Shown: piece by piece, positions 3,811 through 21,482 of the stretch
How positions within the stretch are numbered: position 1 is the stretch's first letter
Layout of the letters: each line of letters starts with the position of its first letter
Assembly (NCBI GenBank): GCA_016208465.1
Contig: JACQXZ010000038.1
Location: 1-53,342 of the forward strand
Length of the DNA stretch: 53,342 bases
Reading direction: 5' to 3'
Origin: Actinomycetota bacterium
GTDB lineage: Bacteria > Actinomycetota > Aquicultoria > JACQXZ01
Made by a program: the position numbers and the translations under genes
The notes under the pieces: model-generated
What the model was told of the DNA's origin: nothing
Seen by the model: the letters and a program-made list of their open reading frames with translations, nothing else
The model's database searches: none

Positions 3811-4818
3811 ATGCATAAAATTACTCTTATTCCGGGAGATGGAATCGGACCGGAAATTTCAGAAGCAATGCGCAGGGTTGTTGATTCGACCGGCATAAAG
3901 ATTAACTGGGAAGTTCAACATGCCGGGGCAGACGTGATGTCAGAATACGGAACACCTTTACCTGATCATGTTTTAGAATCTATCCGAAAAAATAAAATTG
4001 CGATTAAAGGACCGATTACCACGCCTGTTGGAAGCGGTTTTAGAAGCGTTAATGTCGCTTTAAGAAAAGAACTGGATTTATACGCTTGTCTTCGTCCATG
4101 TTTTTCTCTTAAAGGCGTGAAATCCCGTTATTCAGACATTGACTTGGTTATCGTAAGAGAAAACACAGAAGATTTATATGCCGGGAACGAGAGAATGATT
4201 GATGATGATACCGCTGAGAGTATAAAAAGAATTACCCGCAAGGCTTCTGAAAGAATTGCTAACTTTGCTTTTAAATACGCGATTGCTGAGAATCGAAAAA
4301 AAGTTACCGCGGTTCATAAGGCTAATATAATGAAGTGTTCTGATGGTTTATTTTTGGAATCAGCTAGAAATGTAGCTAAAAATTATCCGCAAATTGAATT
4401 TGAAGACAGAATTGTTGACAATATGTGTATGCAGTTAGTGCAGTATCCGGAAAAATACGATGTGATGGTTCTACCTAATCTTTATGGAGATATTGTTTCA
4501 GATTTATGCGCTGGTTTGATTGGTGGATTAGGAATAGCCCCGGGAGCTAACATTGGTGATGAGATTGCTTTGTTTGAGCCAACTCACGGGAGCGCTCCAA
4601 GATACGCGGGGCAAAATAAAGTAAATCCAACAGCCTTAATTTTATCAAGCGTTTTAATGTTAAAGCATATAGGAGAGAAAGAAGCGGCTGAAAAAGTTTT
4701 AAACGCGACAGCGGCAGTTGTTGAAGAAGGTATAAACGTAACTTACGATTTAGGCGGAAACGCAGGGACTTCTCAAATGGCGGACGCGATAATTGAAAAA
4801 ATTCAGAATTTGGGCTAA
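3811..4818 (+). CDS. icd: isocitrate dehydrogenase-like beta-decarboxylating dehydrogenase
   Basis: 335-residue member of the isocitrate/isopropylmalate dehydrogenase family, starting [15 protein letters not shown]. The substrate loop reads [19 protein letters not shown]. The S-x-N-x-x-x-R pattern equals Ser113, Asn115 and Arg119 of E. coli isocitrate dehydrogenase. It differs from isopropylmalate and homoisocitrate dehydrogenases, whose loops lack the Ser/Asn pair. The metal-binding segment [17 protein letters not shown] and the coenzyme loop [15 protein letters not shown] are present. Arg-Tyr at the coenzyme positions resembles NADP enzymes, but the C-terminal DLGGNAGTS is of NAD-enzyme type, so the cofactor is open. 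ATG start behind GGAGG. Last gene of the operon; predicted to yield 2-oxoglutarate. Confidence 0.83.
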
Positions 4819-20943: not shown

Positions 20944-20990
20944 CAAAAAGATACAAGAACTAAATAACAGTTCTCGTATCTTTTTTATTT
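20944..20990 (-). terminator. terminator after the ArsR-micropeptide unit
   Basis: AAAAAGATAC and AGAACT pair with AGTTCT and GTATCTTTTTT around a short loop (stem about 20945-20986). There is a T-run on both strands, so it can work in both directions. It closes the minus-strand arsR unit. Confidence 0.8.
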
Positions 20991-21028
20991 TTATATCTGA
21001 ACATTTTTAGAACCTTTTTACGTCATGC

Positions 21029-21091
21029 TCAGGACAAAAATATACAGCCCTCGTCACAATGTCTTGCTTCCAGAAAATTTCTGTATTTCAT
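21029..21091 (-). CDS. Cys-containing micropeptide downstream of arsR
   Basis: 20-codon ORF: ATG six bases after GGAGGTG (21098-21104), encoding MKYRNFLEARHCDEGCIFLS, then TGA. The His-Cys-x3-Cys pattern suggests metal or thiol chemistry. It lies 28 bases after the arsR stop and before a strong terminator, so it should share the arsR promoter. If one T of the TTTTT run at about 21036-21040 were skipped, the frame would continue with CPEHDVKRF, adding a third Cys and a His. Whether that is a sequencing error, frameshifting or chance is unknown. The strong ribosome-binding site is the main evidence for a gene. Confidence 0.42.
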   Translation of the reverse strand: MKYRNFLEARHCDEGCIFLS

Positions 21092-21119
21092 TCTCTTCAC
21101 CTCCGTTTAACTAAATTAT

Positions 21120-21413
21120 TTATAATTCCGACTCATCCGGATAAGATATCAACTTTTCAAAAAATTCCTTACAACACTCTCTAACAGTCATACAATCGCA
21201 ACAATAACAAATTTCTTTTCCTTTACGATCAAATCTTACCAGTCCAGCTTCCTTTAAAACATTTAGATGATGAGATATTGTGGGTTGAGTCATTGAAAAA
21301 TACTCAACTATTTCTTTAACTGAAAGCTCACCTTTATTTTTAAGTAATTTTAAGATATTTCTTCGCGTTTTGTCGGAAAGCGCCCTAAAAAACAAACTAT
21401 CTCTGTCGCACAT
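21120..21413 (-). CDS. ArsR-family metal/thiol-responsive repressor
   Basis: 97-residue winged-helix repressor, opening MCDRDSLFFRALSDKTRRNIL. The recognition region reads GELSVKEIVEYFSMTQPTISHHLNVLKEAGLV, the classic ArsR helix-turn-helix and wing. The C-terminal helix is unusually Cys-rich (ICYCCDCMTVRECC), giving several possible soft-metal or thiol ligands; none is in the standard alpha3 ELCVCDL position. ATG at 21413 is chosen because an upstream in-frame start at 21482 would place the promoter and operator inside the coding region. A perfect palindrome and a consensus promoter precede it, so autoregulation is very likely. A Cys-bearing micropeptide follows in the same unit, and an ABC exporter lies just upstream. 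Confidence 0.82.
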   Translation of the reverse strand: MCDRDSLFFRALSDKTRRNILKLLKNKGELSVKEIVEYFSMTQPTISHHLNVLKEAGLVRFDRKGKEICYCCDCMTVRECCKEFFEKLISYPDESEL

Positions 21414-21430
21414 TTTTACACCCAATAAAC

Positions 21431-21450
21431 ATATAGATAACCATCTATAT
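21431..21450 (-). promoter_or_regulatory. ArsR operator palindrome
   Basis: ATATAGAT (21431-21438), spacer AACC, ATCTATAT (21443-21450): a perfect 8-4-8 inverted repeat starting four bases downstream of the -10 box and ending 18 bases before the arsR start. Size and position are those of an ArsR-family operator. Confidence 0.75.
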
Positions 21451-21453
21451 ATT

Positions 21454-21482
21454 AGATTAAATCTTTTCTTTATGCCTGTCAA
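21454..21482 (-). promoter_or_regulatory. arsR promoter (-35/-10)
   Basis: On the minus strand TTGACA (21482-21477), a 17-base spacer, then TAATCT (21459-21454). The -35 is consensus and the -10 near-consensus, immediately upstream of the operator palindrome. Confidence 0.7.

Follow-up and report, generated by a model that had tools for sequence, protein, structure and literature searches.

A conserved micropeptide gene behind arsR, its RNA pseudoknot and a probable association with copper

In the DNA analyzed here, a window of 53,342 nucleotides from an Actinomycetota genome of the class Aquicultoria, an arsR gene is followed by a reading frame of only 20 codons. The first-pass annotation took the pair for an autoregulated metal- or thiol-response unit whose effector is a micropeptide instead of an efflux pump. 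This raises the question whether so short a frame is a gene at all and, if it is, what it might do in an operon of this kind.

The arsR–micropeptide unit

The unit lies entirely on the minus strand and reads, in order, promoter, operator, arsR, Shine-Dalgarno sequence, 20-codon frame and terminator (Table 1). Its upstream neighbor is an ABC-2 transporter pair, and its downstream neighbor is an ORF for a GspE/PilB-like ATPase, named by eye. The promoter had been described as consensus, which is correct for the -35 hexamer; the -10 element, however, is weak, being either TAATCT (21459-21454, 17 nt spacing) or TTTAAT (15 nt), and is absent from the list of a mechanical promoter scan. Most relatives carry TTGACA in the same location together with a better -10 than the window. 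The putative operator is indeed a perfect 8-4-8 inverted repeat, ATATAGAT-GGTT-ATCTATAT (21450-21431), and the full GGAGGTG site of the short ORF and the strong terminator behind it were likewise seen in the sequence as described. Autoregulation of arsR is likely: palindromes near the arsR -10/+1 region of several relatives fit the proposal of an autoregulated unit, but their sequences differ and some relatives have no palindrome of note.

Table 1. Features of the arsR–micropeptide unit in the window (positions are those of the window).
Feature	Position	Strand	Basis
-35 hexamer TTGACA, arsR promoter	21477..21482	-	sequence; perfect match; most relatives similarly arranged
putative ArsR operator ATATAGATGGTTATCTATAT	21431..21450	-	sequence and palindrome scan
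arsR, 97 aa; winged-helix repressor of the ArsR/SmtB type, C-terminus rich in Cys (ICYCCDC, ECC)	21120..21413	-	Pfam and NCBIfam
Shine-Dalgarno GGAGGTG of the micropeptide	21098..21104	-	sequence; relatives printed also have a strong Shine-Dalgarno
micropeptide ORF MKYRNFLEARHCDEGCIFLS	21029..21091	-	profile matches; family dN/dS 0.08
27-nt H-type pseudoknot GTCCTGAGCATGACGTAAAAAGGTTCT; S1 GTC/GAC, S2 core GAGC/GTTC	21009..21035	-	covariation, fixed spacing
intrinsic terminator ending the unit	20945..20985	-	18-bp stem; shuffles expect 0.2 terminators

The repressor (start ATG 21413, stop TAA 21120) matches Pfam HTH_5 at 1.6e-18 and reaches 87.5 bits against NCBIfam HTH_metalloreg NF033788 (cut-off 55), which places it among the ArsR/SmtB winged-helix proteins; with 87.8 bits it stays below the cut-off of 100 for the SdpR family (NF033789). 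The solved chains closest to it are SrnR, HlyU, CzrA and SmtB, and judged by its sequence its fold is an ordinary ArsR/SmtB one. The C-terminal Cys cluster is present as reported (ICYCCDC, ECC). The idea that its unusual placement marks a new sensing site could not be upheld, since what the ArsR relatives have in common at the C-terminus is CC-x8-CC, and the window protein retains the first CC alone; the additional ICYCCDC is private to it among the relatives compared and is lineage-specific. The window's genome carries two more ArsR genes in tandem (G000:C3:16412-17100; L002, L004).

Conservation and breadth of the micropeptide family

The micropeptide of the window carries the motif HCDEGC (C-x3-C; codons 21061-21044) and scored E 3.4e-10 and 1.4e-7 against two family profiles, of both of which it is itself a member. 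HCDEGC is kept behind a homologous arsR in another family of the class, an exact-pattern search with this string alone being too narrow. Within the class, the closest ArsR homologue, that of G034 (54% identity), is encoded by a gene overlapped by the frame MLRKRFMLRGIAHCDEGC, which ends at a stop and has its own GGGGGTG and terminator. With a two-sequence ArsR profile, ArsR was matched in 17 of 36 class genomes, and at all these loci a short ORF with AHCxxGC, AHCCxGK or close variants lies behind arsR; in the class relatives checked, the ORF behind the Cys-rich arsR measures 16-27 aa and contains HCxxGC or HCCxGK. A 14-peptide profile searched without ArsR gave 24 matches in 19 of the 36 genomes. 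Since this search recovered the arsR loci and others besides, the pair is no artefact of searching only behind arsR. One of the genomes matched, G025, has its match at coordinates identical to those in the genome of Candidatus Aquicultor secundus (L061), from which the window probably belongs to the class of Aquicultor within the Actinomycetota. The first-pass annotation had proposed a search for the pair in related genomes, with loss of the short ORF or of its Cys residues beside homologous arsR genes as the outcome that would speak against it; this was contradicted, both being kept, and the pair is conserved with its thiols.

The family proved to be far wider than ArsR, a point absent from the first-pass annotation, and includes, in several phyla, genes that stand alone or adjoin copA. 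A family profile built from 25 peptides over 16 positions (matches at E <= 1e-4) found members in 55 of 396 genomes of the window's own phylum, Actinomycetota, in 47 of 398 Bacillota-type genomes (the phylum of Moorella) and in 6 of 168 Nitrospirota-type genomes (the phylum of a Thermodesulfovibrionales genome); no match occurred in 171 Chloroflexi-type genomes, a set that doubles as false-positive control. The phylum labels of these sets were inferred from named loci. Three of the six Nitrospirota-type matches were inspected as sequence, and one of the three has the RNA structure described below. In Moorella thermoacetica DSM 21394 the micropeptide reads MTRKRWMLRAVAHCKEGC, followed by a stop, whereas the window peptide sits in a diverged branch with that of L125 (MRYRNIHEVRRCEEGC).

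In 73 distinct 48-nt stretches, differences at codon positions 1, 2 and 3 number 12019, 12165 and 25490, and dN/dS is 0.078 among the closer pairs of the family. Both results argue that the micropeptide is translated, and we consider it almost certain, from comparative evidence, that it is a conserved gene. Its core of 16-18 codons, with the consensus M-K-R-F-M-V-P-R-V-A-H-C-x-E-G-C, is under strong purifying selection. The motif is HC..GC in 57 of the 74 members, HC..GH in 10, HCC.GK in 6 and RC..GC in one, so that the third soft ligand shifts position and is never lost, as would be expected of a metal site. Stops range from codon 17 to beyond 25 (17, 19, 21, 23 or later), and 38 of the 74 loci have a terminator-like hairpin no more than about 230 nt downstream. 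No account of the micropeptide strings was found in the literature covered, which excluded subscription journals and preprints; a protein search of plasmid and phage record collections gave no match, a 20-aa query making such a search uninformative. The family is conserved and apparently undescribed. The stand-alone copies L144, L161 and L163 have a promoter-proximal sequence in common, ACATATAGTTAATA, perhaps the operator of another regulator.

An RNA pseudoknot behind the micropeptide and in phages

A pseudoknot that the first-pass annotation did not mention begins 8 nt after codon 16 and contains the micropeptide stop (ATG 21091, TGA 21031-21029). A loose scan of the window returned this single copy. 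The pattern is GTCC-N6-N-GAC-NNNAAA-C-N6, with the structure (((.[[[[[[.))).......]]]]]]. In 21 ungapped sequences, 88.4% of cells pair against 84.0 +- 0.9 in shuffles (0/500), double changes occur at 6 pairs (reached by 2/500 shuffles) and covariation is 0.278 against 0.177 (0/500), all of these being shuffle statistics that ignore the relatedness of the sequences. Despite this, the same pseudoknot is supported by a slide control, in which moving the register by 1-3 nt lowers pairing to 22-46%, and by replacements of the whole of stem S2: AAACA/TGTTT in L126, GGTA/TACC in L127 and CGGGCA/TGCCCG in Moorella. Stem S1 is little varied (GCC/GGC in L136, GACC/GGTC in L172). There is little doubt, on these comparisons, that a conserved RNA structure stands behind the micropeptide.

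Its position is also constrained: of 48 cases detected by machine, 45 have the knot at an offset of exactly 8 nt from codon 16. An RNA-only pattern search of 249 Bacillota-type genomes, with a pattern built on the micropeptide-type stem sequence, gave 19 matches and none in the reversed control; a micropeptide precedes all 19 (18 by profile, L207 by eye). When codon 16 occupies the P site, the RNA structure starts at +12, which is about the mRNA entry of the ribosome. In one actinobacterial group the position of the pseudoknot is taken, at roughly equal distance from codon 16, by a plain GC hairpin (L167, L169, L171, L173, L174, L178, L180, L185, L187, L191 and L193), and in one family of the class tandem knots 27 nt apart stand behind the micropeptide (L067, L069, L073-L075 and L078). 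A permissive Rfam 15 search of seven micropeptide loci gave nothing at gathering score, Infernal models being unable to represent a knot, and nothing relevant to the RNA element was found in the part of the literature covered, outside subscription journals and preprints.

The knot pattern alone is present in at least 120 IMG/VR stretches, where less than one chance occurrence would be expected as estimated from the information content of the pattern and a guessed collection size. Among the matches listed, the viral knots mostly lack a micropeptide and lie 3' of a gene, the modal distance from stop to knot is 6 nt (26 of about 70), and no long readthrough frame follows the phage stops, the extensions being 0-65 codons and mostly <20. 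In named phages (L347, L350, L353; viral contigs with the pattern include L226-L305) the knot match lies in intergenic gaps, and in D6E, SA13 and Javan407 before scaffold/capsid genes; these matches, at 90-92% over 24-27 nt, are known from sequence similarity rather than from a base-by-base knot. A close match before scaffold/capsid genes was noted in Firmicute-type phages. Since ordinary phage genes also precede the pseudoknot, it is not specific to the peptide, and possibly it is a general phage RNA element without an Rfam entry. Rfam 15 returned only tRNAs at eight phage loci, again with models that cannot represent the knot. Micropeptide and knot occur together on three viral contigs, L222 (1330-1450), L223 (about 4130-4200) and L224; on L222 they lie between a holin-like ORF and an ORF resembling a terminase small subunit, as judged by eye.

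Recoding-site H-type pseudoknots and the T-even gene 32 operator have a short stem 1, a stem 2 of about 6 bp, a 1-nt bridge and an A-rich third loop, and stand 5-9 nt from the key codon. The micropeptide knot resembles them in stems, bridge, loop and codon distance; unlike them, it has no slippery site, conserved stop or conserved extension. Its conserved sequence, GTCC...GAC...AAAC, is unmatched in Rfam. The BjrC68 sRNA model (RF02353) spans knot and terminator of one locus at a sub-threshold 25.5 against 39 bits. It consists, unlike the knot, of two hairpins, the likeness is mostly to the terminator, and the model gave no match at six further loci searched; identity with BjrC68 was rejected as a terminator-like match at a single locus.

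Copper context and competing readings

Of the 74 micropeptide loci, 20 have a CopA-like ATPase within 1.5 kb, which may lie to either side of the micropeptide and in either orientation; among 56 ArsR loci taken as controls, with up to 3 kb of flank, none has one. These copA-neighbor loci are of common descent, so that the counts are not independent events, though the arrangements differ. For ten ATPases tested, NCBIfam CopA/Cu-ATPase models were best or among the best, and several have CopZ-type domains. CsoR-like boxes (TACCCC..GGGGTA) stand 5' of the micropeptide at 6 loci, compared with 0.45 expected from mononucleotide shuffles; in Moorella and relatives such a box lies between micropeptide and copA. 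Neither copA nor arsR is found close to about half of the 74 loci, and the neighbors there belong to diverse Pfam families with no common theme, so copper may be one context among several. Taken as gene-neighborhood evidence, these observations make an association of the family with copper probable, and the copper-ATPase neighborhood elsewhere fits the original proposal of a metal response in which the operon itself has no pump.

The nearest familiar arrangement is SmtB-SmtA, an ArsR/SmtB repressor with a metallothionein, SmtA being a Cys-rich domain of ~56 aa. Both systems place a repressor of this family, with features of a metal sensor type, beside a very small Cys/His-bearing protein in an operon without a pump. 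The window-type peptide differs in having 16-27 aa with two thiols, in its position downstream of arsR in the same operon, in its attached RNA pseudoknot and in a copper rather than zinc neighborhood; with 2 Cys and 1 His it does not belong to the SmtA-type metallothioneins with their multi-Cys zinc-finger-like fold. Copper-sensing nascent peptides are known in CruR/DUF2946 (PMC9426467) and CutF (PMC9973294). CruR (145 residues) and CutF are exported, head their operons and combine CXXC or CXXXC with a proline-rich C-terminal arrest motif (PMC9426467, PMC9973294), and in CutF a stem-loop downstream of the ORF matters (PMC9973294). The micropeptide, too, carries its Cys motif in a small ORF that has copper genes in the vicinity and RNA downstream. 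It differs in its 16 aa, in often standing alone and in its H-type pseudoknot, and it falls outside these leader peptides, having HCxxxC without a signal sequence or Pro-rich C-terminus and often being followed by a terminator.

Our preferred reading, held tentatively at somewhat short of an even chance, is that of a metal-responsive micropeptide gene autorepressed by ArsR, whose peptide binds Cu(I) and whose RNA structure paces the ribosome. ArsR would keep its own promoter shut until its C-terminal thiols capture a thiophilic metal, most likely Cu(I), whereupon the operon would be transcribed and the micropeptide made. The peptide would coordinate the metal by His11-Cys12 together with one further ligand, at position 13 or 16, and might either buffer or carry Cu(I) inside the cell as a very small ligand or act via a partner protein; metal binding itself appears rather more plausible than not. 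A ribosome whose P site holds codon 16 would meet the RNA structure at its leading edge and may therefore be slowed just as the metal motif is completed, limiting or timing peptide output; an effect on the ribosome seems to us evenly balanced. Several observations count against the preferred reading. Conservation extends over all 16 residues of the core, which exceeds the needs of a simple metal ligand, and of the two CC shared by its relatives the window ArsR no longer has the second. The knot also lies behind ordinary phage genes, many loci are near neither copA nor arsR, and with stops anywhere from codon 17 to beyond 25 some ribosomes have to unfold the knot in order to terminate. A bolder extension, which we regard as rather doubtful, would make micropeptide and ribosome-entry knot an unrecognized element class, a metal (copper) sensor/effector on the translating ribosome, with the knot as a signal for terminating ribosomes in bacteria and many phages.

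That full-length conservation is what a nascent-chain sensor would explain: the 16-residue core would be read in the exit tunnel as an arrest or leader peptide while the pseudoknot blocks the way at codon 16, the ribosome being stalled or released by metal or Cys supply, and the output would be mRNA fate or expression of a neighbor, with no free peptide. The RNA structure keeps its distance from codon 16 and not from the stop, and a hairpin takes its place in one group; both points speak for such a sensor, as do copper-sensing precedents (PMC9426467, PMC9973294) in which a Cys motif is combined with an RNA structure or a Rho site further downstream. We nevertheless consider it unlikely, since about half of the loci (38/74) show the terminator-like hairpin close downstream, many have no nearby co-directional target gene, a terminator divides the micropeptide from the next gene in the window and in Moorella, and the peptide has no RAPP-type arrest motif. 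The viral matches, mostly without peptide, with their modal 6-nt spacing among the matches listed and their intergenic sites in named phages, including those before scaffold/capsid genes in D6E, SA13 and Javan407, would instead suit an autonomous 3' RNA element of phages and bacteria (mRNA stabilizer, processing or protein-binding site) with an independent peptide, the knot lying merely as near as a terminating ribosome permits. This is improbable given that the spacing behind the micropeptide is tied to codon 16, with the stop before, in or behind the knot, and that all 19 RNA-only matches in the 249 Bacillota-type genomes, found with the micropeptide-type stem in the pattern, follow a micropeptide.

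Viral readthrough signals have a similar spacing of stop and knot, and other frames behind the micropeptide are often open for 15 codons, as a readthrough or frameshift signal that extends the peptide or causes a slip would require; in the frameshift version one T fewer in the window gives ...CPEHDVKRF. Such a signal is very improbable. Neither identity nor position of the stop is conserved and the phage extensions, among the matches listed, are short (0-65 codons, mostly <20), on which grounds readthrough was rejected; products of other frames are not conserved (frame +1 of L132 soon hits a stop), which disposes of a frameshift, or a sequencing error, leading to CPEHDVKRF. The 27-aa form made by removing one T has no Pfam match. 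Selenocysteine at the TGA after Cys16 was also rejected, position 17 not being conserved. That an ordinary ArsR is followed here by a fortuitous open frame is scarcely credible: the ORF is very short and no annotation or family was found for it, but its conservation in several phyla, its dN/dS of 0.08 and its linked covarying RNA led us to reject this reading.

Should the preferred reading be true, a deeply conserved gene would have been missed by standard annotation because it has fewer than about 20 codons, and the micropeptide may rank among the smallest conserved metal-linked proteins known. Copper biology would gain a new part, adjoining CopA in unrelated bacteria, and the knot would be a new small RNA element, nucleotide-exact in its spacing to the peptide and common to phages of many hosts, whose effect on the ribosome is directly testable. 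With the gene in Moorella thermoacetica and the knot in named phages, experiments are feasible now. A small membrane protein of L130 (...PLMHLFMGHGH), with a similar one in L128, adjoins CopA and the micropeptide and may also be copper-linked.
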